In this document: positions 9,384 through 35,975 of the stretch, piece after piece | Layout of the letters: the number at the start of each line of letters is the position of its first letter | Numbering within the stretch: the stretch's first letter is position 1 | Source: a virus | DNA: 46,441 nt | Virus record (IMG/VR): IMGVR_UViG_3300025849_000065 | Span: 1 to 46,441 of that record | Reading direction: 5' to 3' (one strand) | The notes under the pieces: model-generated | Databases searched by the model: none | The model's input: only the letters and a program-made list of their open reading frames with translations | Told to the model about the DNA's origin: nothing | Position numbers and translations under genes: made by a program

Positions 9384-9431
9384 TCGGTTCACTCTCCCCA
9401 GATAGGCGGTTTAAAATTAATTGTATACCTT

Positions 9432-17573: not shown

Positions 17574-20500
17574 TTATTTTTTGAGTTCTTCAATCTCTGC
17601 TTTCAGTTCTTTGATTGCTTCAATCAGTAATCCAACAACGTTACCATAAGCTACATGTTTGATACCATTATCATCTTCTGATACAACCTCTGGAAGGACC
17701 GCTTCAATTTCTTGTGCAATAACACCAGTTGCAGATTTGCCTGAATCTATCCAGTCAAAATTAACACCGCGTAATTGAGTTACTTTATCGAGCGCTCTGG
17801 TAATTGTTGTTACATTTTCTTTAAGAGATTCATCAGACGTTGAGTTAAAGTTAACTGCGGACATATCTCCACTTGCGTTTACGTAGCCAGCAACCGTTAT
17901 ACCTGATGGGTTCCATTTTAGAGGAACATACGTTCCACCTGACCAATTACTTCGAAGTTCTCCGTAAGGAACACCAAACGCTGTACTACCGCCTACGCTA
18001 GCAAACTCCAAGCTGCTAGCATCCGATGAAGTTGGGTGGAATATAGGAGCGTGAACTATTCCTTCACTTGCATTCCAATAGAAGTCCAAGGAAGCCTGAT
18101 AGTTATTACCACCAGCCGCGCCAATCGTTGGAGCCACAGCAGCAATATAATAATCAACATTTTCGTTAGTTCTTTCTGTCGTTGCCAGTGTTGATGCATT
18201 GCCTCCGCCAGAAATGGTGATTGTCTTAGTATCACCAGTACCTGTTGCCGTTACTCCAGCACCCACAAAGTTTAAAAATTCGGCAGCTGTTGCTAATGGT
18301 GTACCTTCATCTAATACTGTTACCGATGCACCACCGCCACCTGTTGGCCATGATGTAATAGTTGCACCGTCTAGAGTGGCACCGCCAACAATGTTGATAT
18401 TCTCAACTGTAACCAAATCGGTTGATGCTGTATAGAAGAAGTTAGTTTGGTTACCAGTAGCAGGCAAGTTACTATGGTCAAAGTTAGGCCCTGTGGTACC
18501 ATACAGCGGTCTTGCGCCTGATCCACCTTGAACCATTGTAATAAACATATTAGTTGTTTGTAAGGCAGATGCGTTAATATCATCAACCTCAACTTCGTCA
18601 GTTGAGCCAGAAGTCCCTTGGAATCCTTGAATACCTTGAATACCTTGTGCACCATCTTCACCATCATCACCAGCTGGTCCTTGTACAGTACTATCAGCAC
18701 CATCAAATCCTTGAAATCCTTGAGTACCTTGGTTGCCTTGAATACCCTGGTCACCTTGAGTACCCTGAATACCCTGAATACCTTGGTATCCTTGAAAACC
18801 TTGGGAACCTGCGGGTCCCGGTCCACCCTCTCCACCATCAGCTCCGGGATCCCCTTGAGCACCAATTGCACCCTGAGCACCTACAGAACCGTCACCACCG
18901 GCCGGTCCAATAGCACCCTGTGGTCCCTCAGGTCCTATACCACCATCTCCACCAGTGAAACCCTGTGGTCCTGAGCCACCTGTATCTCCAGTAAATCCTT
19001 GAGTACCTTGTGGTCCTTGAATACCAGGATCGCCCGAAACAGATTGACCTTGAGTACCTTGAATACCTTGAGTACCTTGTGGTCCTTGAATACCTACACC
19101 ATCAGCACCATCAAATCCTTGAGTACCTTGGTCGCCTTGAGTACCTTGAACTCCTTGAACGCCAACGCCAGCATCTCCGGTAAATCCTTGAGTACCTTGG
19201 TCTCCCTGAATACCTAAGTCACCTTGAATACCGTCTCCACCAGCTCCGCCTTGTAATCCTTGAATACCCTGAACACCTTGGTCACCTTGAGTACCTTGTG
19301 CCCCTTGAGGACCAGTTCCACCAGGACCGTCGTTACCTTGGAAACCTTGAGTTCCTTGAACACCTTGAGAACCAGTTCCATCAAATCCTTGAGTACCCTG
19401 ATCTCCTTGAGTACCTTGAGCACCTTGAGTGCCGCCTGAACCTTGAGCACCGACTCCGCCAACATCACCTTGAATACCTTGAGTACCCTGTGGTCCAAAT
19501 CCATCAGCACCCTGAGAACCAAATCCCTGAGTACCTTGTACACCTTGAATACCTTGATCACCTTGAACACCTTGCTGACCTTCTCCGCCAGGTTGTCCGT
19601 CGTCACCAGATCCGCCTTGAACACCTTGTGTACCTTGAACACCTTGAGAACCGGCACCAGCAGGTCCTTGTGCACCGTCATTGCCTTCACCACCAATAAT
19701 ACCTTGAGTACCCTGATCTCCTTGGACACCTTGAATACCTTGGTTACCGTCGCCTGAAGCTCCTTGGAATCCTAACTCGCCTTGTTCGCCTTGTGTACCC
19801 TGGACACCTTGAATACCTTGGTTACCTTGAGCTCCGCCAAGACCAGTGGTACCTTGGTCACCTTGCGTTCCTTGAACACCTTGAGTACCTTGAGCACCTT
19901 GTCCTGTATTACCTTGTAGACCTTGGTCACCTTGAGTTCCTTGAACGCCTTGTGTACCTTGAACACCTTGACTACCTGTTGAACCTATATCACCTGTACG
20001 AGCAAACGTAATAGTAACATCTTCATCGTTAATAAAAGTTCCGTTGCCGCTTACAAACGCGCAAGATATAATAAAGTAACCAGTAACTTCAGTAAGAGCA
20101 GATATTGTAAATATTTGGAATGTTTCTGGGGCGCCTTTCTTTGTAACTCTAAAGTGGCCTTTCACAGGACTTGTAGAATCATCAATTGTTCTTAAGAATG
20201 GCTGAATATCAACAAAGTTATCGTCTCTATCACCAATATACATTGCCGTAACAGAAGAATAAGAAGCATTATTGAATTTTAATCCGCCGATGCCAGGAGA
20301 GTTATTAACTACATCTGTCTTAAAGGTATAATCAAAGGTAATACCACCAAACGATCCAGCTTCCCCTTCATCGCCTTGAATACCTTGCGTTCCTTGTGGT
20401 CCTTGAGTACCTTGACCTGTTAAACCTTGATTACCTTGGAATCCTTGCGTACCCTGTGGTCCTTGAATACCTTGTGGTCCTTTAGGAATAAAGGTAAGTA

Positions 20501-23192
20501 ATGTTTCAACACCATGAGTAGCAGTAACTGTTGTCCAACTTGAAGCATTACCATCAATATAAACAACATCAAAGAAACCGTAGTTCTTTGCACCAGAATC
20601 CCATGTCCAATCTGTAATTTCGTATACTAACCAATGATGGCCGCCAGGACCGGGATCTCCACCTGCGCCTACCTGAATTTTTAAATAGCCTTTTGGAGTA
20701 CCTGGTTGAGATGCAATCCAATCAAGTAAAGCATCAATCTCCGTGTCGTATTGGTCATTAGGAATATCGTCTAATGTAATTAATGTAGCAAGAGTAGGAT
20801 TACTGTTATTGAACTTAAAGTTATTTGTACCTGGGTCAGTACCGCCAACAACGTTACTTGAGTAATTCCATACGAATGTTAAACCACCGTATTCGCCTTG
20901 CTCGCCTTGTAAACCTTGAAGACCTTGTAATCCTTGCGCACCTTGGTTACCAGTTAAACCAGTAAATCCTTGAGTACCTTGATCGCCTTGTAATCCTTGG
21001 TTGCCCTGAATACCCTGAGTTCCTTGAACACCTTGATTACCCTGAATGGCTTCTCCTTGTAAACCTTGGAATCCTTGAACACCTTGAGTACCTTGGTCGC
21101 CCTGTATACCTTGAGTTCCTTGAACACCTTGAATACCTTGGTCGCCCTGTATACCTTGAGTTCCTTGAACACCTTGAATACCACGATCACCATTTCTTGA
21201 AAATGTTAATCTAACATCTATTCCGTTAGTAAATGTTGTTGAACCGTTAAGTCTTTCAACATCAAATTCCCAGAAACCGGTTCTATCTGTTATTGATATG
21301 ATTTTAAATAATGCTTGGTCGTAAACATCAGCTGCATTAATAATACGAACATAACCTTTAGGACTTCCAACAATACCATCAAGCTCTGCGGCAACGCCGT
21401 CCATTACATTAACTGCACCGTTATCTAAATCATCAACCCATAATTTTAAAGGATCGGATACGAGACTAGTATCACTGAATCTTATTTGACCTTGGCCAGG
21501 ATCTCCGTCTGTTGTATTATTATCGTAATCGTAATCATACGTAATACCACCAAAGTCACCAATCGAACCCTGAGTACCTTGAGTTCCTTGTACACCTTGG
21601 TCGCCTTGTAATCCTTGAAGACCTTGGTTACCTTGAATACCTTGAGTACCTTGACTTCCCTGAGAACCTACTTCACCTTGGGCTCCAGTAAATCCTTGAG
21701 TACCTTGATTTCCCTGAGTTCCTTGGTTACCTTGAATACCGGTAAAACCTTGAGTACCCTGAACACCTTGAGTACCAACTCTTCCAAACGAAAGTATAAA
21801 CGCGGGGTCAGCCGCAGCATTAGTAAGTACGGCAGCTGTATTTGCTAACCATGTAATTTGTAATGTTAACCAACCAGTGTTGTCAGTTACATCGTTAATT
21901 TCAAAAGTAATAAACTCTTGATTATTAGAAATTCTTGTAAGTTGAATGTAGCCTTTCTTTGGACCTGCTACAAGATCAATACTATTTAATAACGCAGATA
22001 CATCTTTATTTGATTTTGCTTCTTGGTCAATGAATAATGCAGTTGCGAGGGAAGGATCAGCATTGTTAATTGCGAACTTACCGGCGGTAGGATCTTGTGC
22101 AATTGTTGATAGATCAATATCAAACTCAAACGATACTCCACCATAAGTTCCTACAAATCCTTGGTTGCCTACATCACCCTGAATACCGGTGAAACCTTGC
22201 GTACCTTGATCGCCTTGTAATCCCTGAGTACCCTGGAAACCTAAGTCACCTTGAATACCTGTAAAGCCTTGGGTGCCTTGAACGCCTTGATCGCCTTGTG
22301 TACCTTGAATACCCAAGTCACCTTGAATACCTTGAGTACCTTGCGTTCCTTGGAATCCTTGAAAACCACGGAAACCTCTTTCGCCTTGAATACCTTCGTA
22401 ACCTAATTGTCCTTGAACGCCTTGGTCGCCTTGAACTCCTTGTAAACCTTGAACTCCACGGAATGTACCGAGGTTAATCCAAACAGATCCATCGTATACC
22501 CAGATTTCTTCATCTGTGTCATCAACAACAGCATTACCAACAACAGCTGAAGGGAACGCGGTATTTAAAGTAGCTTGTGGATCTCCGCCAGAATCGACAT
22601 CAGGCACTGAACCAATAATATCAAAACCAGGACCGTAATCACCTTGAGTACCTTGAGTACCTTGTGCACCAGTTGTACCTTGAACACCTGCACCAACTTG
22701 AGTAACAGGATCTGAAGCAAATACCATAACAGTAAACGCTTCTGTTGGATTTGGTGTTACAACAGCTCCATTTCCGTCATATAATGCAATCTGAAATCCA
22801 TTTACTGTTTTATTGTTAACTGATACAAATCTTGTATCATCTTGGAACTCACCGTCAGTAACAACTGTATAATCAGTGTCAGGTTGAGGAGAAACAAATG
22901 TAAGATCTAAAGTACCTGCACCAGATTGCCAATTTGAAGCAGTAACACTTGTTCCTGTTGGAGTTGTACCATCAACTCTCATGAAAGCAAATGGTAAAAT
23001 AGCAGACTGCGTTACACCAGAATCACTTAAGAATTCCTTCCACGCGACACCGTCGGAAAAATATACCTTATCATTTTCGGCATATATGAGTGCACCCTCA
23101 TAGACAACGGGGTCAAGCGTAATAGGAAAAGGCTGTGGTGTGCCGTAACCAAGTAATTGATTCTTTCCTGTTATTGTACCAAATCTGGACAT
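17574..23192 (-). CDS. Collagen-like tail fibre with four globular modules and S74 chaperone
   Basis: An 1872-aa fibre. An N-terminal domain (SRFGTITGKNQLLGYG, later YFSDGVAWKEF) is followed by collagen-like Gly-X-Y arms dominated by GxQ triplets (GIQGVQGTQG). Four related globular modules of roughly 120-140 aa interrupt the arms at about 347-472, 547-669, 763-902 and 943-1067. Each begins GG[IVL][ST][FY] and carries a K-K/P-KGY or KGH segment. The longest arm is about 1067-1530. After a beta stalk, residues 1786-1872 are an S74 domain with SDESLKENV (Ser1786/Lys1791), GVIAQEIEAVLPEVV and a final coiled coil, which would release 87 residues. It should form a long trimeric fibre. An AAGGAA ribosome site precedes the ATG and a hairpin terminator follows the stop. 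Confidence 0.9.
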   Translation of the reverse strand: MSRFGTITGKNQLLGYGTPQPFPITLDPVVYEGALIYAENDKVYFSDGVAWKEFLSDSGVTQSAILPFAFMRVDGTTPTGTSVTASNWQSGAGTLDLTFVSPQPDTDYTVVTDGEFQDDTRFVSVNNKTVNGFQIALYDGNGAVVTPNPTEAFTVMVFASDPVTQVGAGVQGTTGAQGTQGTQGDYGPGFDIIGSVPDVDSGGDPQATLNTAFPSAVVGNAVVDDTDEEIWVYDGSVWINLGTFRGVQGLQGVQGDQGVQGQLGYEGIQGERGFRGFQGFQGTQGTQGIQGDLGIQGTQGDQGVQGTQGFTGIQGDLGFQGTQGLQGDQGTQGFTGIQGDVGNQGFVGTYGGVSFEFDIDLSTIAQDPTAGKFAINNADPSLATALFIDQEAKSNKDVSALLNSIDLVAGPKKGYIQLTRISNNQEFITFEINDVTDNTGWLTLQITWLANTAAVLTNAAADPAFILSFGRVGTQGVQGTQGFTGIQGNQGTQGNQGTQGFTGAQGEVGSQGSQGTQGIQGNQGLQGLQGDQGVQGTQGTQGSIGDFGGITYDYDYDNNTTDGDPGQGQIRFSDTSLVSDPLKLWVDDLDNGAVNVMDGVAAELDGIVGSPKGYVRIINAADVYDQALFKIISITDRTGFWEFDVERLNGSTTFTNGIDVRLTFSRNGDRGIQGVQGTQGIQGDQGIQGVQGTQGIQGDQGTQGVQGFQGLQGEAIQGNQGVQGTQGIQGNQGLQGDQGTQGFTGLTGNQGAQGLQGLQGLQGEQGEYGGLTFVWNYSSNVVGGTDPGTNNFKFNNSNPTLATLITLDDIPNDQYDTEIDALLDWIASQPGTPKGYLKIQVGAGGDPGPGGHHWLVYEITDWTWDSGAKNYGFFDVVYIDGNASSWTTVTATHGVETLLTFIPKGPQGIQGPQGTQGFQGNQGLTGQGTQGPQGTQGIQGDEGEAGSFGGITFDYTFKTDVVNNSPGIGGLKFNNASYSSVTAMYIGDRDDNFVDIQPFLRTIDDSTSPVKGHFRVTKKGAPETFQIFTISALTEVTGYFIISCAFVSGNGTFINDEDVTITFARTGDIGSTGSQGVQGTQGVQGTQGDQGLQGNTGQGAQGTQGVQGTQGDQGTTGLGGAQGNQGIQGVQGTQGEQGELGFQGASGDGNQGIQGVQGDQGTQGIIGGEGNDGAQGPAGAGSQGVQGTQGVQGGSGDDGQPGGEGQQGVQGDQGIQGVQGTQGFGSQGADGFGPQGTQGIQGDVGGVGAQGSGGTQGAQGTQGDQGTQGFDGTGSQGVQGTQGFQGNDGPGGTGPQGAQGTQGDQGVQGIQGLQGGAGGDGIQGDLGIQGDQGTQGFTGDAGVGVQGVQGTQGDQGTQGFDGADGVGIQGPQGTQGIQGTQGQSVSGDPGIQGPQGTQGFTGDTGGSGPQGFTGGDGGIGPEGPQGAIGPAGGDGSVGAQGAIGAQGDPGADGGEGGPGPAGSQGFQGYQGIQGIQGTQGDQGIQGNQGTQGFQGFDGADSTVQGPAGDDGEDGAQGIQGIQGFQGTSGSTDEVEVDDINASALQTTNMFITMVQGGSGARPLYGTTGPNFDHSNLPATGNQTNFFYTASTDLVTVENINIVGGATLDGATITSWPTGGGGASVTVLDEGTPLATAAEFLNFVGAGVTATGTGDTKTITISGGGNASTLATTERTNENVDYYIAAVAPTIGAAGGNNYQASLDFYWNASEGIVHAPIFHPTSSDASSLEFASVGGSTAFGVPYGELRSNWSGGTYVPLKWNPSGITVAGYVNASGDMSAVNFNSTSDESLKENVTTITRALDKVTQLRGVNFDWIDSGKSATGVIAQEIEAVLPEVVSEDDNGIKHVAYGNVVGLLIEAIKELKAEIEELKK
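18605..22700 (-). repeat. Gly-X-Gln collagen-like repeats
   Basis: Gly-X-Y arms lie at about 22700-22630, 22480-22155, 21780-21560, 21185-20905, 20490-20360 and 19990-18605. Gln fills the third position of most triplets and Pro is rare, as in phage collagen-like proteins. At DNA level these are 9-nt period repeats (plus-strand CCTTGAGTA-type units). Confidence 0.92.
21089..21178. repeat. Perfect 45-bp tandem duplication
   Basis: Bases 21089-21133 and 21134-21178 are identical over 45 bp (five Gly-X-Y triplets). The rest of the arm is only degenerately repetitive, so this pair looks recent. Confidence 0.9.
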
Positions 23193-23687: not shown

Positions 23688-26600
23688 TTAAACTACCGCT
23701 CTCGAGTTCGAAGCACGTCTTGCTAACTTACGAACTGATGAGGTAAATGGTCGGCCTTCAATACGACCTGTTCTACCGTTAATTCTTAGACCTCTTGCGA
23801 AGTACTGGTTATTCAATTCATCAGCACCTGACCAACGAATTCTACCACCACTTTCATTTAGTACCGAAGCGATAGCAGATATAGCAGCACCTAAGTTTCT
23901 GAAGTTCAGAGGTAATGCGTTTCTGTTAACACCAGCCGATGCACCGTTGAACTGGTGAGCAATAGATTCAACCAACGATCCGAAGATCAATGTTTCTGGT
24001 CTCAATACATTGTCCTTAAGACAATCATCGAATAAACCGTTAATCATTGCTGTATGTTCAGCATCTGGAGTTACATTAGTTGTGATGTATGTTTTCATCC
24101 TATCCCATGCACCAGTAAAGGCATCAAGCAGATCAGTATTGTTTGCACCTTCTAAGGTCCATGCAGAACCATTCCAATAATATATATCGCCGGCGTAATG
24201 ACTCACTGTATAATCAGATGCAACAATATAAGCCCAATTTGGTTTCATTCCTGTTACTGAACTTAGATCAGCATATGCATTAACCGAACCTTTATACTTC
24301 AGTCCTTGCATTGTTGGATTAAAGACTGGGAATACATGAGTTCCGTCATAGTTAAAGAACGAAGCAGCATATGTTCTTACAGCGTTCTGTGAACCATTAT
24401 CACTGTATGTCGGTTGTGGGATATCAGGATTAAACTTATCATATGCAAAGTCATTATAAACCGCAGTTAGTAAGTTTCTAGCATCTCTTCGAGTTAAGTT
24501 AATATCAATGAAGTTATAAGCAGAGTTAACGTGTCTTACAGTATCTTTCTGTAATTGCTTTCTTCTCTGTTGAATAATTGCTTGAGCATCTGTAAATATA
24601 GCATTACTGTAAGTGTAATCCGGCTCTTCCTTAACTGGTAAGTACTTAGTGTCATTATACAATTGAGTGTTGTAGAACATGTTGGCCAATTTCTCAACCT
24701 TCTTGCTTTCAACTTCTGTTGCCAATTCACCGAGTATTACCTGTCCTGGGTATTCTCCTAATACGATATCTTTACAAATTCTACCTAACTGACGATATGA
24801 TTTAGCAGTTGGTATTCTCTGACCTTCAGGTAATCTGTAAACTGAATTCCAGAAGTAGAAATCTGCGTTCCATCTTGAAGCAGAATTACCACCGAAGTTC
24901 AAGTCGAAGCTGAATGCGTCAAGTAAGTATCCAGTATCTCTGATACATTTTGCCTTATTATAATCAAGTACCTTAAAGCTACTGTTAATATAATCTGTTA
25001 CATCGGAAGCAAGTTCTTCTGTATTATTATCAATCTTAATACCTGCAGCTGATAGTTCAGAAGGAATCCAAGTTGCTGTTGATACAGGTCTTGGTAATTC
25101 ATCGGTATCGTTAGCAGTTATAACACCTTCAATAATTCCTACTAAGTCATGGACCGTAGTACCTTCAGTTGCCGTAGCAGGATCGCCTATTAGACTCTGC
25201 GGAGTTAATGTATATGTACTTGCGTTCGTTACAGGAGTTTCCTGAACTACTTGCTCAACTATATCACCTAAGAAGTTATAAATCGCCGCTGTTTGCGCTC
25301 TTGTATCAACCGGAAGTACTGATACTCCATTTTCGAAGTAAATACCTGCAGCAAGTCTTGTGGCAGAGTTAGTTTGATATTGAACATCATGAGAGATTGC
25401 ATCAACTAAGAATCCGATATCTCTTCTGCATTTTGCATCAGGGAAACTTAGAGCATTGTGAGTACTTGACAGGTAAGTAATAACAGCTTCTGATAAGATA
25501 GCAGATTTTCTTTCTACAATTTCCTTAGCAGTAATATAGTTAGCACCCATCCAAGTTTGTAATACATCAATACGATCAGGTATTGTATTTCTTGATTCTA
25601 TTGAATCATCAACCGCGTTAGCAACAATTTCTGTAAGCTTACGAGCAGCAATACAAGTATCAGGGTTTGCACCAACTGCAGACATATCTTGAGCAACAGT
25701 TGTTTGATATGAAGGAATTCCATTCCAGTATTCGTATTTCGTTACAATATCACCAGTATAATATTTTCCTGTTCTTGGGTACAATGTAGTTGTGATTGAC
25801 TTACCACCTACAACATGTTCAACGATTTTGGCAAGGTGTAAGAATGCATCTCTTGTGCCCATTCTTTGTTCGATTTGTAATCCAGTATTTACCGCATTCT
25901 CAAAATACATTCCTGCAGTTTGAACTGTTGCCGCATTACCACCGTATTGAATATCGTGACAAAGTGCATCGATGATATAACCTGTATCTCTTCGACATTT
26001 TGCTTCACTGTAAGGTAATACCTGGAAGAACTCTGACAGATGAGCAAGTAACGAAGTAGAAACTGAATCCTTAATTGCGTCAAGTGCAAGGTAAGCAGCA
26101 GTTGCTTCCGCACCCCATACTGCGTTTGTTTCATCAGGCATTACAACCTTAGGAGCAAGTAACATTGTGTTGTTAGTAATTGAATTAGCAACAATATCGA
26201 ATAAGGATTCTACTTCAGCAGATACTGCAGCCTGCGCCGATCCACCTGCGAACGATTGAGTTTGAGAATTGCCTGCTGATTTCAATCCAGCAATATCAGT
26301 ATCTAAACAAATAAGTTCAGCACAATCACCAAGGTGAGCAAATGCAGCGGCTGTTGCTTCTCTTTGACTCGCAGGTAATACTGATACCGCATTTTCAAAA
26401 TAAAGTTTTGCGTCGTTCAGTGTAGAGAAGTTTCCGCCGTATTGAGCATCGGCCGCAATTGCGTCAATTAAGTAACCAGTATCTCTTTCACATTTTGCGA
26501 TGTCGTAAGTAACTGATGGTCTGTTTGCTGCAAGCCATGCTGTAATCTCAGCCTGTAAGAATACTTTGTTATTCTGTAACTGAGATCTTGCATTAATTCT

Positions 26601-29600
26601 TTCAGTTGAAGGTGAAGTATTAGTATATGTAATTGCATCAGCATTACCAGAACCGTTAGTCATTATATCAATAACTTCGTTAAACGCATTTTCTGTTCTA
26701 AGCTTCATTGTTCCGTCAACAACAGCTTCAATTGCTTTATCTCTTGCGAACTCAATACCTTTAACTGTTTCTGTTAATTGTTCATTGATTGATCTGTTAG
26801 CGCCAACCGTTCCAATCCTGTAAGCAAGACCGTTAAATACCGCTGATTGATTACCACCCGTTAGTACATCAGTTCTTACCGCATCAATAATAAACCCAAC
26901 ATCTCTCTTACATTTGTCGCCGTCAAATACGTAGTAACGATCTTTGAGGTATCCTTGTAATTCTTCGACGATGAAGTCTCTGTTGTTAACCAATTGCTTT
27001 CTTGCCAATGTTCTATTAGGATCAAAGGAAGCCTTAACCAATGTTGGCATTTCAGATTCTTCGATATTAGTGTTATCAATTAAATCAGCAATTGCGTATA
27101 TCAAGTTAACAGCTTCTGTTGACTTGGCAGTGCTTGCCGCAGTTCCATCTAGAATATGATATGGGCCTGTACTAATTGCACCTGCATCAGCAGTTACGAA
27201 TGTATGTGGTTGTTGTCCTGAACCGCCTGTTCCTACATTCATTGAGATTGTTGTAGCAGTTGTAGCAATAATAGTTACAGGAGCATTATAATAAGGATGA
27301 TGTTTCTGTGGTGAAGTATGGTTAGCAGCACCTGAACCCATATCACAACTAAATGTTACCCCGTTTGGTTTCAGATATACTTGAGCATTAACATCAAGAT
27401 TGTGAGCACCAATATCAGCAACATAAATTCCTGTGGCAGGATCGTAAGTTGCAGTTGAAACTCCGAACTGAGTACCTAATGCAGTTTGTTGAATAGCCGA
27501 AGTGATAGGACCAACCAGACTAGCGAGCCTTCTAAAGGCAAGTTGAGTTGGCAGCCGCTGTTCGTAAGGCAATACGTTGATTGCTTCTCTTAAACCTGAA
27601 ACGTTAGCAGTATCTTCGTAATTAGATAATGTTTTAAATTGACCTTTTACTTCAATTGGTAAAACGTTAGTTGATCTTTGCTGTTCGTAATCAGCAGATT
27701 GTCCATCAAACTTACGGAAGTAATAATCAAATACTTCTAATAGATTTTCGTTTCCGCCGTATTCAATATCACGAGATAAAGCATCAACCATAAGACCAAC
27801 ATCTCTTTCACAAGTTGCTTTCTTAAATGGTAATCCATTATGTTCGTCTCTTAAGTAATCAATTACAGAAGCAGAAAGATTTTCTGTCATACCATCAATT
27901 GCAGCATGAGCTTCAATCATTGGACCTTCAACAGCAGGCTCGATATATGCAGGTAAGTAATCTAATGTGTTGTCGCTGATTACTTGAGTTACAATATTAA
28001 CTCTATCTCTTGCTAGGTTAGCAACTTCGATTCCGTAATCAGTTCCTGAAACATCCTGAGCTTGGCCGTTTCCTGTTGTAGGAGTAATGGTAATATCACG
28101 TACGATATTCCAAACAACCTCAGCAATATGTTCCCATGTTTTGTATGTTGGCAATACTTGATCTGCAGGTAATACTGATACCGCATTTTCAAAATACAAT
28201 CTTGCGAAGTTAACTGAACATGTATTTCCACCAAACTTAACATCTTGTATTAAACCATCAACAAGATAACCTGTATCTCTTTCACAAGCAACAGTATCAT
28301 ATGATAGTGCAGGATATTCTGCAGCAATATAAGCAGTAGTTTCAGCAATAATAAATTGTCTGTTTAAAATAAGTTGATTACCAGCATCATTGTGATTAGC
28401 ACTTAAAGCAGCAGTTGAACCCCATTGTTTTGTACCAATGTTTGCTGAACCATTTTGCATGATATCAATGATCTTATCAAAATGTTGATTTGTTCTTGTT
28501 AACGCAACTCCTGTTATTGAAGGATCTGCGGCAACTTGAGCTTTAAGATAATTAACTGCTGCAACTGTTTCAACTAACTGATCGTTGATTACCTTGTTAG
28601 CACCTACAGAACCGGTTCTATATCCTAGACCCATGAACTGTGAGTTCCAAGTAGAGTTCGTTGCCATATCACGTCTTACTGCATCAAGAATGAATCCTGA
28701 ATCTCTTGAACATTTTTCTCCATCAAACGTAAAGTATTGTGTATCAAGGTAAGCAGAAACATCTTTTGCCAAGTATTCTTTGTTTTGTTGTAATTGTTCT
28801 CTTGCGTATTGACCTTGAGACTTGTAAGTTACTTTTGATACGCCTTCTTTAATAACATTTACAAAAGTATGAACTCCGCCTGCAGATCCAGTGACACCAA
28901 TATCAACCGTAACATCATCGCCAACGATGGCAGTAATATTCATTGGTTGCATATAGTTAACATCACCTTTTCTTGGGTAGGAATGTTCTGTTGCATTTGA
29001 ATCTTGATCGCAAGTAAATGTAAATGCGTATGGAGCAAACTCAATATAATCTTCAGTAGTTAAATCATGTCCTGGTATTGTTAAAGTACTTAACCCAGAA
29101 GCAGGAAGGAATGTTGCTGTAGTTGGAGTATAATGCTTAACATAAGAAGCAGGATCTGTAAAGAACAGACCGTCCGTATCAATTGCCCCAACATCCGCTC
29201 TAACAAACGTATGAGTACCACCAGTACCTGTTCCGATGTTCATTGTAATTGTATCGGCAGTAACAGAAGTAAGTCTTACAGGGGTTTTATATGCAGGATG
29301 GTGTTTAGCCGGCGCAGCATGTTCTGTAACATCACCATCTAAAGTACAAGTAAAGATAACTGAATTTGGTTTAATAACAATCGTATCACCAGCTTGCAGA
29401 TTATGTTTTCCGATGGATGCTACAAATACACCAGTTACTGGGTTATACGTTGCATCGTATGGAGTATATGTTGAATTGTACTTAGCAGTTTTAACACTGT
29501 CTGATGTAGCAGAAACAAATGTATGAACAGAAGTATCTGAACTTGGTCCTACATTAACTGTAAAAGAAGTTGCTGTTGTTGCCGCAACCACAACTGGCTT

Positions 29601-32600
29601 CTTATAAGCAGGGTGAGCGTGTTCACCTTTAATTGCACCAGTGATAGCAGATACAAATGTATGGGTTCCACCGCCGTTAGCAACCGCACCAACATTACAA
29701 CCAATTACGTTTCCATTCACTGAAGTAATTTTAACTTTCTTCTTATAGAACGGATGATGTGGTTCAGGCGCAGAGTGATTTGTTAAATTGCCATCTAACA
29801 GACAAGTAAATGTAATACCGCGAGTTGCGAATTCAATCTCATCTCCAACTATCATTTTGTGAGTACCGATGTTAGCAGTAAATTCGCCGGTTTCTGGTAC
29901 ATAACTTGCAGCTGTTGGAGTAAAGCTTGCGATTGTTGTTGTTGGGTAAGTATGTTGAGTAGCGTTACCGTCAGTTGCACAAGTAAATGTTAAACTGTCA
30001 GGCGCAAGTAATACTTCTTCACCAACTTGTAAATCATGAGCACCAACTGTAATAACCGTTAGGCCAGTTACAGGATCGTAAGTAGCATTAGATGGAGTAT
30101 AGATTTTATTACCAGAATTTAATATATCCTTGACTTTATTAATATTCTCTACTGCTCTATGTCTTGATGCTTCGTCAGACAATGCCTTAACTTCTGTAAT
30201 TGAGTTAGCAGCCGCAGATACAAACGTATGAGCGTTTGTTCCGCCTTTACCTACATTCAGTATAATAGTTGTAGATGTTACTGCTTCAATTGGGCAAGGA
30301 TGATTATAATAAGGATGTCCTGCTGCAGGTACAGAATCGTTTTGAACTCCGCTTCCTGTATCACAACTAAATACAATACCGCCTGCTGAGAATCTAACGT
30401 ACTCTCCAGGTAATAAACTATGTTGACCAATCGTCGCTTCGAACTTTCCTGTTGTAGGATCGTAACTTGCGGTTGATGGAGTAAACTGATCTCCAGGTAC
30501 TGTACTAATAAGATCTTGTTTCAATGTTTCCATTGAACCTAAGGTTTGCACTAACTGATTGTTAATAACATTATCAGCAAGTGTAGTACCTGCTCTGTAA
30601 GCAATACCTGTTTGAATTGCGTTATAGTTTGAACCTGTTAGAATATCTCTTTCAACCGCGGGCAAAATATATTGAGTTACATCTCGACGGCACTTGGTAG
30701 AATCATATCTATAATAAGTATTTTCGATATATCCTTCAATCATGTCTTGAATGAATTCTTTGTTTCTTTGTAATTGCTTTCTTGCATTTCTATTAGCAGC
30801 AGGAATCGCCACAGCATCACTCCAAGCAATATCATCTCCTAGAGTAGATACAGCGTTAGGTAAAGCAACTACGAAGTTATGCTTATCGACAATTGCCGAC
30901 TTACCAACATTGATTGTGATTCGATTAGGTGTTGCTCCTAATACCTCAATTGGAGTACCTGCAGCCGGGTCAGAAGCTCGAGGATATCCTGTTCTTGTTT
31001 TATTATTATCTCTATCACAAGTAAATACCAAACCACCTGTTTTAAGTAATACATAACGGCCTGCAGATAATCCATGTCCTGCTGTTAGTGCGTTAGGTGT
31101 TGCCGAAACAAACGTATGAGGTACTTGACCCGTTCCGCCTGTACCAACATTCATACGAATCGTTGTGGTGGTTGTTCCTATAATAGGACAAGGTTTGTTA
31201 TAATAAGGGTGGTGAGCCTGTGGTGATGAATGATTAGCAACACCTGAACCCATATTACAACTGAATATGATACTTTCAGGTTTGAACCATATATGATCGC
31301 CAACTTCGAGTGTATGTGAACCTACAGTTGCTTCCATGATTCCTGTGGCAGGATCGTAGGTTGCGTTTGATACCGTAAGTCCAGTTTGTGGCTGAAGTGT
31401 GATAACTGATAAACCAGTAGATGGATCATAAGTAGCAGCCGTAGGTGTAAACTGTTTTCCTTTATTCTCAAGGATTTCTAAAATATTATCGTAAGCATCA
31501 TCGAGACGATCTGAAGCAAGGAATGAATCCCCGTCAATCAATTCGTTAGTCTGATCTTTTAATCTCTTATAAGCAGCAACTGTTTCGTTGTTCTGATTTT
31601 CCATAACAGTTTTTGCAGCAGCCATGTAATATGCACGACCTGCAGTAACAGAGTTATAGTTTGTGTCAAACATCATGTCGTTCTTAACAGCGGGTAGAAT
31701 ATAATCAGATACATCTCTACGACAAGCTTTACTATCGTAAGCATAGAACTCATCGTTATTCTCTATCCAATCAATAAGACCATCTGAAATTACTTTTTTG
31801 TTGTCTTGTAGAAGTTGTCTGGCTGAGGTATAAGGAACAGAAGTATCTTTCCATATAATCGGGTTGATGTTCTCTTCGCCGTACTCCAGGACATTCAGAA
31901 GTTCACCAAAGGACGTTTCGATGCGTTCGTTGATTTCAATATTACCAGTTGCGAATACTCGCTTTGTTTGATCTCTTAAGTATTCAAGTGCGCCTTTTGT
32001 TTCTTCAAGCTGTTCACCTGGGACAACATAACTGATTGGTGATCTATAAGTAATACCACCAAGTCTTCCCCAATAGTTCGTATCGAGTGCAATGTCATAA
32101 CCTGTGCCATCAAGTACAATACCTGAATCTCTTAAACATTTTTCAGAATCATACTCTTTATAACCTAAACCGGAATTTGCTGTATTGGCTGTTAAGTAAC
32201 CAACCATATCATCAATAATATCATCAGCAGCGTAATCAATTGATTCTGCAAACGCAGTGTTACCAATAATATCTACGGACGTTGATTTTGGAGCAAAGAA
32301 CTGAGTTGTTCCTTTTGCTCTCATTGAGATGTCACCGAACTGAGTACCTGAGTTGTTCAATGTCATCTGACCACCGTTCAAGGCATAGAATGCACAACGA
32401 ACGAAGATAGATAGAGAACCAATACCGTTAACACCAGCACCATCTCTAGCAACATATCCTAAACCGTTTTGAGTACGAGGTGTAAAACCAAAACAAAGTA
32501 CGTAGGTATATAATGAATCGGTATCAAGTACTCTTCTGTCTGCAAGTACACAACCACCACCACGACCAACCGCTCTGTTAGGGAAATCGTCGATTCCGAT

Positions 32601-34613
32601 AGAAGCAATTGTTGCTGTACCACCAGATTCAGTAGTTATTGTATCACCTACTTTAAATCCTTGACCATTCTTAAGGTTACGAACTCGAATTGTGTTTAAC
32701 GCGTTTACATCACCAGGTACTATACCTTTCAGTGCATCTAATGAATCATCCCAAGAAAGGTAACCAATAGCACCAGATGAGAATACCACTTCATCATCAA
32801 TTTTCCATAATGATGTAACTGGGTTTGAAGTATTACCTGTAACTCCTGATAGTACAAATGTTTGACCAAGGTCAGCAAGAGTACCTTTTGAGTTATAAGG
32901 ATTAAGAGGTGGTTCAACATCTTGACGTAAGAAGTTAGATAACTGAGTACTATCTCTTAAGTAAGGTGAACGTAATAACTTGGCACCAGGTCGATAAGCA
33001 ATTGCGAATCCACCTTCTGGGAAGTCAAAGTTATCAACCTTAAAGTTCTGATAACCAAATCCTTGAACATAACCACCAGAACCAACTAAGATTCCGTTAT
33101 TGTTTTCGTAGCCAGGAAGTAGTTCGATAACTGTAGCATACTGACCTGCAGTTGAAGTACAAGAACAGTCATCAGGCAACATTAAGTTACCTTTTGTATA
33201 ATAAGTACCAGGACCTACTGAAATATGAACAGCGTTGTTAATTGCGTTACGATTTAATTCGCCGCCTGCTTTTTCTAAACAAAGTTCAAATGCTCTTTCC
33301 AGTGTTCTTACTGGTTGCATCATTGTACCTGGGTTATCATCGTCACCAGAACCGGCATCTACATTAACTTTGAGTGCTTGTGCTGTTTTCTTTGATACTT
33401 CAGAGAATAGTTGTCCGAAGTTAATTTGTTCTGTATCACCTGTCTTTTCGTTACGAATTGCGAAGTAACTTTCATCATCGATTGGAGCCTCAAACTCTTT
33501 GCTGAGATTCATATCAAAGTCGACAAGTTTAGATTTATCAACTATGCCTGTAAAGGTTGATCCTGATATTGTTCCATTATCGAACGATGATCCGTTTGCA
33601 CTCAAGCCTTCAGCAGTTGAACTACCAATTGACATGTTAGTGGCAACAACATTATCCATCGTACCAGTGTATGTACTGCCACTTATGACACTATCTGTAA
33701 TACTTGAATCATCAATGGTTGAATTAGTTAGGACAACATTGTTGCCTGTACCGTCATTAAATTCAGATTGTGTTATGACAATATTATTGGCAGTAGAATC
33801 TGTAATGACACCATCAGAGAAATCAGAATTAATGATTGTTGCATTATCAATATCGCCATCGTCAAAATTTGAATTGGTAATGTCTACATCGTCTGCAGTA
33901 CCACCAGTGATATCGGATTCATCAATTGTACCAGTATTAAACTCTGAATCGCTAATGACAACATTATTTGCGGTAGAATTTATAATCGCTGAGTTATCAA
34001 TTGTAGAATTGGTCAGGACAACATTATTTCCTGTACCTTCATTGAACTCGGAATTTGTTATGACAACGTTGTTAGCAACACTATCAAATAATCTTGAAGA
34101 CGTAATCGTTACATTGTTAGCAGTACTATCGAGAAGTTCTGAACTTGTAATGACAAAGTTATTTGCGGTACCATCAAGTAAGTCTGTATTGGTAAAGATA
34201 TTATTATTACCAGTGCCTGATGAGAAATCAGAGAACGTGATTGTTACGTTATTTGCTGTGCCGTTAAATATTTCACCGTCTGTAAAAGTTGATGCAGCAA
34301 TAGCAATATTGTTGGCGACCGAGTTGGTCATGATCGTATCGTCGATCGTACCACGGACAAAGTTAGTATCTTCGATTTCAGAATTATCTATGTCAACGTT
34401 GTTTAGGCGTGAATCAGACATTCTCACACCAGAGATAGTTCCTCCAGTGATCGTTATTCTAGAAAAGATTTCATATTGAATTGCTTCAACTAATTCCTTT
34501 CTAGTTATATTACTTGTACCGTCGTCACCTTGGACTAGGTTAACAATAACGAACAGGTCTTCTGTTCTGGTATTGGCACCAGTAATCGGAGGTAGTTCTG
34601 AAATTTTTGCCAT
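23688..34613 (-). CDS. Giant virion adhesin with beta-helix head and alternating repeat modules
   Basis: At 3641 aa this is the longest complete gene. The N-terminus (AKISELPPITGANTRTEDLF) is an adaptor type I associate with marine phage fibres. Residues about 50-360 are pentapeptide-like repeats (NNVVITNS, NNVVLTNSTIDNS), predicted to form a beta solenoid. Residues about 410-790 look like a pectate-lyase-type right-handed beta-helix, opening with GDDDNPGT...PVRTLERA. From about 800 to 3430 two module types are strung together: a helical one with C-x-R-D and a spaced Asp (11 Cys-bearing copies), and a beta one with YDPxTG, FTC or FSC, and HTFVSA (about eight copies plus a half). The C-terminus is basic and has no S74 domain. 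The likely role is a long host-contact or spike fibre. No enzyme active site could be confirmed. An AAGGA ribosome site precedes the ATG. Confidence 0.85.
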   Translation of the reverse strand: MAKISELPPITGANTRTEDLFVIVNLVQGDDGTSNITRKELVEAIQYEIFSRITITGGTISGVRMSDSRLNNVDIDNSEIEDTNFVRGTIDDTIMTNSVANNIAIAASTFTDGEIFNGTANNVTITFSDFSSGTGNNNIFTNTDLLDGTANNFVITSSELLDSTANNVTITSSRLFDSVANNVVITNSEFNEGTGNNVVLTNSTIDNSAIINSTANNVVISDSEFNTGTIDESDITGGTADDVDITNSNFDDGDIDNATIINSDFSDGVITDSTANNIVITQSEFNDGTGNNVVLTNSTIDDSSITDSVISGSTYTGTMDNVVATNMSIGSSTAEGLSANGSSFDNGTISGSTFTGIVDKSKLVDFDMNLSKEFEAPIDDESYFAIRNEKTGDTEQINFGQLFSEVSKKTAQALKVNVDAGSGDDDNPGTMMQPVRTLERAFELCLEKAGGELNRNAINNAVHISVGPGTYYTKGNLMLPDDCSCTSTAGQYATVIELLPGYENNNGILVGSGGYVQGFGYQNFKVDNFDFPEGGFAIAYRPGAKLLRSPYLRDSTQLSNFLRQDVEPPLNPYNSKGTLADLGQTFVLSGVTGNTSNPVTSLWKIDDEVVFSSGAIGYLSWDDSLDALKGIVPGDVNALNTIRVRNLKNGQGFKVGDTITTESGGTATIASIGIDDFPNRAVGRGGGCVLADRRVLDTDSLYTYVLCFGFTPRTQNGLGYVARDGAGVNGIGSLSIFVRCAFYALNGGQMTLNNSGTQFGDISMRAKGTTQFFAPKSTSVDIIGNTAFAESIDYAADDIIDDMVGYLTANTANSGLGYKEYDSEKCLRDSGIVLDGTGYDIALDTNYWGRLGGITYRSPISYVVPGEQLEETKGALEYLRDQTKRVFATGNIEINERIETSFGELLNVLEYGEENINPIIWKDTSVPYTSARQLLQDNKKVISDGLIDWIENNDEFYAYDSKACRRDVSDYILPAVKNDMMFDTNYNSVTAGRAYYMAAAKTVMENQNNETVAAYKRLKDQTNELIDGDSFLASDRLDDAYDNILEILENKGKQFTPTAATYDPSTGLSVITLQPQTGLTVSNATYDPATGIMEATVGSHTLEVGDHIWFKPESIIFSCNMGSGVANHSSPQAHHPYYNKPCPIIGTTTTTIRMNVGTGGTGQVPHTFVSATPNALTAGHGLSAGRYVLLKTGGLVFTCDRDNNKTRTGYPRASDPAAGTPIEVLGATPNRITINVGKSAIVDKHNFVVALPNAVSTLGDDIAWSDAVAIPAANRNARKQLQRNKEFIQDMIEGYIENTYYRYDSTKCRRDVTQYILPAVERDILTGSNYNAIQTGIAYRAGTTLADNVINNQLVQTLGSMETLKQDLISTVPGDQFTPSTASYDPTTGKFEATIGQHSLLPGEYVRFSAGGIVFSCDTGSGVQNDSVPAAGHPYYNHPCPIEAVTSTTIILNVGKGGTNAHTFVSAAANSITEVKALSDEASRHRAVENINKVKDILNSGNKIYTPSNATYDPVTGLTVITVGAHDLQVGEEVLLAPDSLTFTCATDGNATQHTYPTTTIASFTPTAASYVPETGEFTANIGTHKMIVGDEIEFATRGITFTCLLDGNLTNHSAPEPHHPFYKKKVKITSVNGNVIGCNVGAVANGGGTHTFVSAITGAIKGEHAHPAYKKPVVVAATTATSFTVNVGPSSDTSVHTFVSATSDSVKTAKYNSTYTPYDATYNPVTGVFVASIGKHNLQAGDTIVIKPNSVIFTCTLDGDVTEHAAPAKHHPAYKTPVRLTSVTADTITMNIGTGTGGTHTFVRADVGAIDTDGLFFTDPASYVKHYTPTTATFLPASGLSTLTIPGHDLTTEDYIEFAPYAFTFTCDQDSNATEHSYPRKGDVNYMQPMNITAIVGDDVTVDIGVTGSAGGVHTFVNVIKEGVSKVTYKSQGQYAREQLQQNKEYLAKDVSAYLDTQYFTFDGEKCSRDSGFILDAVRRDMATNSTWNSQFMGLGYRTGSVGANKVINDQLVETVAAVNYLKAQVAADPSITGVALTRTNQHFDKIIDIMQNGSANIGTKQWGSTAALSANHNDAGNQLILNRQFIIAETTAYIAAEYPALSYDTVACERDTGYLVDGLIQDVKFGGNTCSVNFARLYFENAVSVLPADQVLPTYKTWEHIAEVVWNIVRDITITPTTGNGQAQDVSGTDYGIEVANLARDRVNIVTQVISDNTLDYLPAYIEPAVEGPMIEAHAAIDGMTENLSASVIDYLRDEHNGLPFKKATCERDVGLMVDALSRDIEYGGNENLLEVFDYYFRKFDGQSADYEQQRSTNVLPIEVKGQFKTLSNYEDTANVSGLREAINVLPYEQRLPTQLAFRRLASLVGPITSAIQQTALGTQFGVSTATYDPATGIYVADIGAHNLDVNAQVYLKPNGVTFSCDMGSGAANHTSPQKHHPYYNAPVTIIATTATTISMNVGTGGSGQQPHTFVTADAGAISTGPYHILDGTAASTAKSTEAVNLIYAIADLIDNTNIEESEMPTLVKASFDPNRTLARKQLVNNRDFIVEELQGYLKDRYYVFDGDKCKRDVGFIIDAVRTDVLTGGNQSAVFNGLAYRIGTVGANRSINEQLTETVKGIEFARDKAIEAVVDGTMKLRTENAFNEVIDIMTNGSGNADAITYTNTSPSTERINARSQLQNNKVFLQAEITAWLAANRPSVTYDIAKCERDTGYLIDAIAADAQYGGNFSTLNDAKLYFENAVSVLPASQREATAAAFAHLGDCAELICLDTDIAGLKSAGNSQTQSFAGGSAQAAVSAEVESLFDIVANSITNNTMLLAPKVVMPDETNAVWGAEATAAYLALDAIKDSVSTSLLAHLSEFFQVLPYSEAKCRRDTGYIIDALCHDIQYGGNAATVQTAGMYFENAVNTGLQIEQRMGTRDAFLHLAKIVEHVVGGKSITTTLYPRTGKYYTGDIVTKYEYWNGIPSYQTTVAQDMSAVGANPDTCIAARKLTEIVANAVDDSIESRNTIPDRIDVLQTWMGANYITAKEIVERKSAILSEAVITYLSSTHNALSFPDAKCRRDIGFLVDAISHDVQYQTNSATRLAAGIYFENGVSVLPVDTRAQTAAIYNFLGDIVEQVVQETPVTNASTYTLTPQSLIGDPATATEGTTVHDLVGIIEGVITANDTDELPRPVSTATWIPSELSAAGIKIDNNTEELASDVTDYINSSFKVLDYNKAKCIRDTGYLLDAFSFDLNFGGNSASRWNADFYFWNSVYRLPEGQRIPTAKSYRQLGRICKDIVLGEYPGQVILGELATEVESKKVEKLANMFYNTQLYNDTKYLPVKEEPDYTYSNAIFTDAQAIIQQRRKQLQKDTVRHVNSAYNFIDINLTRRDARNLLTAVYNDFAYDKFNPDIPQPTYSDNGSQNAVRTYAASFFNYDGTHVFPVFNPTMQGLKYKGSVNAYADLSSVTGMKPNWAYIVASDYTVSHYAGDIYYWNGSAWTLEGANNTDLLDAFTGAWDRMKTYITTNVTPDAEHTAMINGLFDDCLKDNVLRPETLIFGSLVESIAHQFNGASAGVNRNALPLNFRNLGAAISAIASVLNESGGRIRWSGADELNNQYFARGLRINGRTGRIEGRPFTSSVRKLARRASNSRAVV
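24480..32150 (-). repeat. Helical C-x-R-D modules in the giant adhesin
   Basis: A recurring unit runs YDxxKCxRDxGYxxDAxxxDxxYGGN...YFENAVSVLP. The Cys codons lie near 32140, 31723, 30690, 28712, 28285, 27813, 26912, 26492, 25996, 25430 and 24947. A twelfth copy near 24490 keeps RRD but has lost the Cys (NLTRRDARNLLTAVYNDF). Copies fall into two subtypes, one with the YGGN...YFENAVSVLP tail and one with an AYR...INxQLxET tail. I do not recognise a named family. Confidence 0.8.
27160..31420 (-). repeat. Beta modules (YDPxTG...FTC...HTFVSA) in the giant adhesin
   Basis: Units of about 90-100 residues open with TPxxATYDPxTG, contain GxHxLxxGDxI and F[TS]C near the middle and close with NVGxGGxxHTFVSA. 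FTC or FSC lies near 31258, 31018, 30362, 29985, 29806, 29346, 29010 and 27345, with an extra half unit near 29610. Seven are clustered between the third and fourth C-x-R-D copies or just before them; one sits alone at 27345. Confidence 0.8.
33530..34470 (-). repeat. Pentapeptide-like solenoid repeats in the giant adhesin
   Basis: About 310 residues built from short units such as TANNVVISDSEF, GTGNNVVLTNST and IDNSAIINS. Asn, Ser and Thr alternate with aliphatic residues at near-constant spacing, as in right-handed beta-helical solenoids. Codons repeat too, so opposite-strand frames stay open by chance. Confidence 0.8.
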
Positions 34614-34667: not shown

Positions 34668-35975
34668 TTACTCTTTGTTATTAAGCTTGTTTTCTAAAAC
34701 ATTTACTTTTTCACTTAAATCTTTTATTGCATTTATTAGCAATGGCACTAATTGTTGGTATCTTACTGCTTTATAAGTACCAGCTTCCATTTCAATATCA
34801 TAGACTACTTCAGGAACCAACTCTTCGATCTCCTGAGCAATAACGCCAGGATGCGTATCTTGAGGTCTTTCTTTATAGTTAAACGTATATGTCTTTATTT
34901 GTTCTATCGTTTCCAAACCTTTTTCAAGAGGCTTTATATTTTCTTTTAATCTTTCGTCTGAGAAGGATCCGTTTGTTGTTACGTCGCCAACAAATACTGC
35001 ACTTCCTGTATCTCCATCAATTTGGGCTTTAATAGTTGATCCGCCCGAGTAGTATGTAGATGTATTTAAACTTACATCATGATGATAGGTTAGGTTGCCG
35101 CCGTTAGAAACATAATTGTATGTATCACCAAAAGTATAGATTGCACTATACACATTCATGTTTGCTGCAAAATCAACTAACCGCGTGTCAGTACCACCGA
35201 CGTATCTAGAAATTCTTAAATAACCTTGACCACCTCCAGCTCTGCCTTCCATATAGCCATAGTTATCAGCGTCAACATAACCGCCTGTTCCAATAAACTT
35301 ATTACCTTTATAAGTATCGAGTTCACCGTTTCCATCAAATGATATAACGCCTGAGGCAGAAAGGTTAATACCGTCTCCACCAGAAAACGCAGCTCTTGCT
35401 CTTGTATCGGTATAATAAAGATTTGTTGAACCTTCTGATATATCATCGGTGCTTAATCCACCGCCACCGCTTCCAATTGATAATGTACCTACTGTTAATG
35501 TACCAGTAACTTCAGCATCTTCTGCAATGTTAATATTTGGAACTGATAGTGTACCTGCAGTTGATAATGAAAACTTATTAGGTGCAACACCAGTATTAAT
35601 AATAAAGTTACCAGGATTTGAATTTTCTAATCCTACATCCCAAGATAAAGAACCGTTTGTGTATCGTGTTTGTGCACCAGCACTATTTAAAAAAGTTGTT
35701 GTTAATTGAGCACTACCTGTAACTTTAAAAGCACCGTTAACATTAACCGGAGTATTACTCGAGATTGCTTCAATTGTATTGGTACTTATTTTCGTGGAAC
35801 CGATTACATTGCCCGCGGTAAGGTTCCCTGTAAGAGTTGCACTACCTGTTGTTGTGCTACCGCCAGCAGCCGCAGTCACCACATTGGAAGCCAATAAGTC
35901 AACTATATCGTTCGTCTTGTTAAACCAATTTTGAAAGGTTTGCGAAGTTGTTATATTACCTAGATCCTGAGCCAT
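34668..35975 (-). CDS. Tail fibre with C-terminal S74 intramolecular chaperone
   Basis: A 435-aa fibre. The N-terminus (QTFQNWFNKTNDIVDLLASN) is a type I associate with marine phage fibres and probably attaches to the virion. The middle is Gly/Ser/Thr-rich beta repeat, with an EGSTNLYYTDTRAR segment near residue 180. Residues 339-435 form an S74 peptidase domain: SDERLKENI with the expected Ser339/Lys344 dyad (Ser and Lys five apart, as in endosialidase), then GVIAQEIEELVPEVV and a closing coiled coil. In this family the chaperone drives trimer folding and then cuts itself off before the Ser, here releasing 97 residues. The ATG directly follows the stop of the 60-aa gene, so the two are probably coupled. 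Confidence 0.88.
   Translation of the reverse strand: MAQDLGNITTSQTFQNWFNKTNDIVDLLASNVVTAAAGGSTTTGSATLTGNLTAGNVIGSTKISTNTIEAISSNTPVNVNGAFKVTGSAQLTTTFLNSAGAQTRYTNGSLSWDVGLENSNPGNFIINTGVAPNKFSLSTAGTLSVPNINIAEDAEVTGTLTVGTLSIGSGGGGLSTDDISEGSTNLYYTDTRARAAFSGGDGINLSASGVISFDGNGELDTYKGNKFIGTGGYVDADNYGYMEGRAGGGQGYLRISRYVGGTDTRLVDFAANMNVYSAIYTFGDTYNYVSNGGNLTYHHDVSLNTSTYYSGGSTIKAQIDGDTGSAVFVGDVTTNGSFSDERLKENIKPLEKGLETIEQIKTYTFNYKERPQDTHPGVIAQEIEELVPEVVYDIEMEAGTYKAVRYQQLVPLLINAIKDLSEKVNVLENKLNNKE

Follow-up and report, generated by a model that had tools for sequence, protein, structure and literature searches.

The DNA analysed in the current work, referred to as the window, comprises the 46,441 bases of virus record IMGVR_UViG_3300025849_000065. 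Profile searches of its open reading frames (ORFs) indicate that it represents part of a minus-strand tail gene cluster (all coordinates below refer to that strand), in which a subtilisin-type protease gene, a baseplate wedge gene, a VrlC homologue and a short tail-fibre-type gene are followed by a gene (23688-34613) specifying a giant protein of 3641 aa (N-terminus MAKISELP) that is built from helical and beta modules. This protein matches PHROG tail-fibre and virion-structural profiles, and its named structure matches in BFVD at E<1e-3 are phage tail, structural or uncharacterised proteins. Because of this homology and of its neighbours, being the baseplate wedge subunit (41615-43594; phrog_438), the VrlC homologue (36167-41599; phrog_358), which is a marker of the tail/host-recognition region, and tail-fibre genes, one of which (34668-35975; profile match) lies directly upstream of the giant gene, the giant very probably belongs to the virion tail or baseplate of a marine phage of the T4-like kind. 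This assignment agrees with the phage structural role that an earlier reading of the sequence, here called the original prediction, had proposed.

For the module inventory, module copies were aligned, converted into hidden Markov models (HMMs) and searched back against proteins. The HMMs separate two module types in the giant, helical (H) and beta (B), and retrieve twelve helical domains of 90-150 bits each together with seven full and two half (b) beta domains, in the order HHBBHBbBbBBHHHBHHHHHH. Starting from the N-terminal side, these are H1 (Cys 826; 31872-32282), H2 (Cys 964; 31455-31850), beta modules 1 (31077-31382) and 2 (30840-31088), H3 (Cys 1308; 30426-30818), beta module 3 (30189-30488), a half beta module (29931-30104), beta module 4 (29622-29927), a second half module (29484-29627), beta modules 5 (29172-29471) and 6 (28830-29135), H4 (Cys 1968; 28443-28838), H5 (Cys 2110; 28014-28418), H6 (Cys 2268; contains a long insertion; 27408-27944), beta module 7 (27165-27470), H7 (Cys 2568; 26646-27038), H8 (Cys 2708; 26217-26624), H9 (Cys 2873; 25719-26129), H10 (Cys 3062; 25155-25562), H11 (Cys 3223; 24696-25079) and H12 (24060-24620). 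Eleven helical copies thus carry a C-x-R-D motif and the last one, which lacks the Cys, carries T-R-R-D (aa 3375), while an additional literal C-x-R-D at aa 1199 sits in a beta module. The protein contains 35 Cys residues, 28 of them in the module region, where 19 are module Cys.

Most of this inventory bears out the original prediction, which had described two module types, twelve helical C-x-R-D copies (one without Cys), a near-invariant Cys in both modules and an order that is not periodic. Its figure of about eight and a half beta copies needs adjusting to the count given above, the beta modules themselves being real, and the span that it gave (24250-32200) corresponds to the module region (aa ~805-3455) of a minus-strand protein that runs ~800 aa further towards its N-terminus. 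Those first 800 aa gave no tblastn match in phage isolates; they include a pentapeptide-like repeat region (aa ~58-340; 33594-34442) that matches Pfam Pentapeptide_4 with an E-value of 4e-8, which is under the family cut-off, and in which ANNV/GNNV motifs are spaced mostly 15 aa apart.

The same modules recur in cyanophages and in relatives at 76 IMG/VR loci, the module region being matched by 293 phage records, so that the module pattern is far beyond chance. A set of 57 proteins, consisting of the window giant and those IMG/VR relatives (picked by similarity) that possess a 12-module helical chain, was used to compare module positions. In 649 of 672 comparisons, the H copy that best matches a given window copy occupies that copy's place in the chain. 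The C-x-R-D motif is present in all 57 proteins at every position from H1 to H11 except H7, where it is found in 52, and H12 is Cys-less yet retains R-D in 57/57. Beta modules always occur after H2 and H3, often after H6 and sometimes after H5, H7, H9 and H10; they never follow H1, H4, H8 or H11. Since the order and Cys pattern of the helical copies are nearly constant and the beta modules vary, H represents a constant backbone that ends in a distinct copy, and B an insert. A strict helical/beta alternation was rejected; what the original prediction called alternating is rather a constant helical chain interrupted by inserted beta modules. The number 12 is to be taken as a property of this clade only, because the relatives were chosen by similarity and cyanophage genomes carry 1-13 H matches; three divergent shorter relatives contain ten H modules and zero B modules. 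By mutual identity the H copies fall into roughly two types, H1-H4 plus H7 versus the rest. The idea, prompted by the number 12, that the chain might represent a covalently joined (alpha-beta)6 phycobilisome disc was dropped, as the H types do not alternate and the three shorter relatives have ten copies.

Among 290 non-redundant H copies, the Cys of the motif is conserved in 281, the Arg in 288 and the Asp in all 290, within a near-invariant KCxRDxGY that is the same as in phycocyanin alpha (the corresponding stretch of H7 in the window, GDKCKRDVGFIIDAVRTDVLTGG, was set beside the phycocyanin alpha motif). In phycobiliproteins, C-x-R-D holds the bilin (Rockwell et al. 2023, PMC10151467). Searches of Pfam, NCBIfam and PDB sequences with the whole giant protein gave no match on the modules, and the description of the modules as unnamed accordingly holds for the full protein and for the beta module, whereas the fold and motif of H point to phycobiliproteins. 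PF00502 (Phycobilisome) is the commonest Pfam match among members of the set of H pairs (34/111, best E-value 8.6e-6) and also among single modules (11/120, best E-value 0.004). A profile of the pairs retrieved nine weak matches from the PDB (E-values 0.06-0.87), eight of which are phycobiliprotein chains, and among the matches listed these chains align through C-x-R-D.

The fold of the helical module was predicted with AlphaFold2 for the H7-H8 pair, using an alignment of 111 H pairs. The model (predicted local distance difference test score, pLDDT, 88.9; predicted template modelling score, pTM, 0.85) is entirely helical, and its Cys lies close to the beginning of a 21-residue helix, which only two others precede. 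Foldseek comparison with the PDB returned mostly phycobiliproteins at a probability of 1.00 and a template modelling (TM) score, normalised by target, of ~0.5-0.7, including allophycocyanin, phycocyanin, phycoerythrin, the ApcE bilin domain and smURFP. The last of these gave the highest TM score, and its sequence aligns with allophycocyanin alpha from ~residue 39 onward; a few engineered haemoglobin chains also match, with a TM score of 0.28. Profile-profile alignment with hhalign, in which the 290 H copies were compared with 51 non-redundant sequences from cyanobacteria, gave a probability of 86-88%, and up to 92% for one subset, as compared to 0.07-1.2% for reversed and column-shuffled controls. 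A phycocyanin beta sequence was employed purely for searching, its best match being 96% identical, from Synechocystis salina. The hhalign alignment begins near CpcA residue 38.

A number of results weigh against this kinship. PF00502 matches neither the 3641-aa protein nor H7-H8 of the window, one profile built from single modules (A4) retrieved no chain from the PDB, and the Foldseek E-values against the PDB range from 0.009 to 0.5, with none below 0.001. When the five motif columns are masked, the hhalign probability falls to ~1% (range 0.3-7%), the best masked alignment being that of one subset with allophycocyanin (7%, E-value 0.005, 109 columns). Because masking nearly abolishes the score, sequence homology beyond the motif is not demonstrated. 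The case for kinship rests on fold and motif jointly, and the H module is not filed as a member of PF00502. Judged on the predicted model, a phycobiliprotein-like fold together with common descent appears likely for H.

The same observations can be read as those of a globin-like repeat, perhaps formerly bilin-binding, that now functions as a ligand-free spacer or adhesion scaffold in which C-x-R-D has a structural or helix-capping role. The constant number and order of the modules would suit a function in length or geometry, and the similarity to phycobiliproteins is not significant beyond the motif. This explanation leaves unaccounted for the retention of the Cys in 281/290 copies and the occurrence of the exact phycobiliprotein motif in a matching fold, and we regard it as rather unlikely.

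The original prediction had also considered that module Cys residues are engaged in disulphides, either inside one chain or linking several, or that they coordinate a metal. The near-invariance of the Cys in both modules is in keeping with this, as is the invariance of G16, H25, C44, P56 and H89 across 49 diverse beta copies, which from the sequence might form a Cys/His/His metal site; a metal site is conceivable chiefly for the beta module, whose one Cys and two His residues are invariant or nearly so. The helical and beta Cys, however, occur independently in relatives: L078, L080 and L083, which are without beta modules, keep the helical Cys, and cyanophage proteins rich in beta modules, in which few or no H modules are detectable, keep the beta Cys. 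Bonding between helical and beta modules is thus unlikely. Moreover, the helical Cys sits in the R and D context known from bilin sites, and the disulphide or metal explanation as a whole seems improbable. For the beta module, AlphaFold2 modelling of a BBHB stretch predicted a beta fold in which several copies exceed a pLDDT of 85, and a role in surface adhesion is possible. Neither Foldseek with this model nor profile searches retrieved a convincing relative; the weak Foldseek matches, such as that to the phi92 endosialidase (E-value 0.06), and a doubtful profile match to a stretch of iota-carbonic anhydrase (E-value 0.003) are not claimed as such.

The explanation that we consider on balance the most probable is that the giant is a virion tail/baseplate fibre protein containing a chain of bilin-binding-globin-like modules. 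Its backbone would be a fixed chain of twelve phycobiliprotein-like helical modules, eleven of which carry the intact bilin-attachment triad Cys-x-Arg-Asp, with beta modules inserted at a few tolerated joints. Each Cys-bearing H module would attach an open-chain tetrapyrrole, provided in this clade by heme oxygenase and bilin reductase that the phage itself encodes and in Synechococcus phages by the host, and the virion tail would thereby become a biliprotein. The pigment might stiffen the modules, shield from light or serve in docking onto a receptor for tetrapyrroles. Among functions of the H modules, bilin binding has the strongest support and constitutes a prediction, for which we judge the chances to be slightly short of even.

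Genes for bilin synthesis were found in relatives of the window. A heme oxygenase gene and a gene for a ferredoxin-dependent bilin reductase (FDBR) are adjacent in two of 20 giant-gene contigs (of 169,742 bp and 77,450 bp), and in both the pair adjoins gp59 and gp32 (L090 7855-9210; L091 4437-5689). Records IMGVR_UViG_3300020056_002227 and IMGVR_UViG_3300035184_001394 contain such pairs. The gp59 proteins of these contigs are 55% identical, which indicates diverged genomes, and both FDBRs score highest with the PcyA model, yet under its cut-off. Among 17 H contigs searched, gp32 was found in only those two; the pair is thus present in 2/2 relatives that reach gp32, at a distance of tens of kb to the giant gene. 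The other H contigs are uninformative for the pair because they do not reach the gp32 region.

H modules also track the bilin lyase CpeT in 24 T4-like isolates (17/18 versus 1/6, Fisher p 0.0008) and among the cyanophages alone (p 0.04), relatedness being uncontrolled in both comparisons. Five strong CpeT genes (in S-WAM2, ACG-2014j, S-PM2, Syn1 and S-H9-2) each lie upstream of an H-module tail gene, at a distance of no more than ~2 kb, a placement that may reflect a single inherited arrangement. A phage CpeT has reportedly been shown to bind phycoerythrobilin without passing it directly to a phycoerythrin subunit of the host. If H were purely structural, it would be by coincidence that the modules are associated with CpeT and that the heme oxygenase-FDBR pair occurs. 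As a separate observation, the S-PM2 record has 16 same-strand tRNAs annotated inside the coding sequence of its H-module tail fibre (L203 13557-18384), which is probably an annotation artefact.

Other results speak against a supply of phage-made bilin to these modules. The window fragment itself contains no bilin genes; FDBR was not found in 15 further H contigs, nor were H modules found in 20 further FDBR contigs, where the reverse search is uninformative because 13 of 13 FDBR contigs tested are without VrlC and so stop short of the tail region. In the 24 isolates, H modules show no association with FDBR (9/12 versus 9/12), and P-SSM2, Mosig and AG-345-F15 possess an FDBR and have no detectable H modules. 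That FDBR does not track H modules is in keeping with a structural-only role.

Binding of heme or bilin could alternatively serve as bait, allowing the tail to dock onto heme or tetrapyrrole uptake receptors of the host, for which the 'Ferrojan horse' idea provides a model of tail docking onto host uptake receptors. The giant gene does lie inside a host-recognition gene cluster and the motif could hold a tetrapyrrole; a heme-ligating His is, however, absent among the conserved H positions, and we deem this explanation most improbable.

Giant proteins of Kyanoviridae, including P-SSM4 gp7, S-TIM4 ORF_101, P-RSM6 CPXG_00128, the S-WAM2 tail protein and T4-GC 734 of S-PM2 and Syn1, belong to PHROG 701, 5342, 18802 and 4527. 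Both module types of the window giant are found among them, often in one protein, and their annotations are those of structural proteins or of components of the tail or baseplate. In their genomes 1-13 H matches are detectable, and beta modules are far more numerous in several of these proteins, whereas in the window a fixed chain of twelve H modules dominates. The giant protein itself is thus an already known kind of phage structural protein; proteomics of cyanophage structural proteins in general has been published (PMC3037559, PMC6224464). No paper on phycobiliprotein-like modules in a phage tail protein was found in the open literature (subscription papers and preprints being outside the scope of the search), and, within the literature searched, the phycobiliprotein-like nature of the backbone is to our knowledge unrecognised.

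Phycobiliproteins (PF00502: phycocyanin, allophycocyanin, phycoerythrin and the ApcE domain) share with H a globin-type fold (predicted for H), KCxRDxGY and weak but specific profile matches. In contrast to them, H occurs as tandem modules within a phage tail protein, and their N-terminal helices X-Y, which function in alpha-beta assembly, have no aligned counterpart in H. Bilin biosynthesis-associated globins (BBAGs; Rockwell et al. 2023, PMC10151467) are phycobiliprotein relatives outside photosynthesis, some with C-x-R-D, which are linked to heme oxygenase and FDBR genes and bind bilins without lyases; being cellular globins as opposed to viral repeat arrays, they are likened to H by description only. 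The pair next to gp59 and gp32 in the two relatives resembles the hemO-pcyX/pcyA cassettes of phages (PMC11480375, citing Ledermann et al. 2016), whose purpose in the virocell, in hosts without phycobilisomes, is called enigmatic in the available portion of that article, where no virion acceptor is proposed. With as many as eleven intact attachment sites, such a tail protein would represent a candidate acceptor, within the virus particle, for phage-made bilins. We tentatively suggest, as a possibility that falls well short of probable, that marine T4-like phages have a biliprotein as their virion tail and that phage hemO with pcyX or pebS, together with CpeT, serves at least partly to load the phage's own tail modules instead of host antennae. 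If so, bilin-binding globins would extend from cellular pigments to viral structure; the comparison also supplies both a fold and a working hypothesis for a module shared by many giant structural proteins of cyanophages.

Regarding the remainder of the window, the tail gene cluster starts upstream with the subtilisin-like serine protease (880 aa; 43639-46281), which contains HGVHVAG and GTSMASP motifs. The VrlC homologue is nearest, by coverage and identity, to the copy of Sinorhizobium phage phiN3/phiM12 (33%), followed by those of Caulobacter phage Cr30, pelagiphages and cyanophages; in pelagimyophages and cyanomyophages, a host recognition cluster with tail fibres comes after VrlC (PMC7029224). 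Beyond the giant gene lie a 141-aa gene, a collagen-like fibre (1872 aa; 17574-23192) with 106 GxQG motifs, 38 consecutive G-x-x triplets and a fibre-type C-terminus, and a 112-aa protein similar to a factor for tail-fibre assembly. They are accompanied by three other large ORFs, of which two match tail or virion profiles. An ORF of more than 3136 aa (3-9410), which leaves the contig end and contains ~16 copies of a YYxDP motif, many of them after FYD, probably specifies another giant tail protein.

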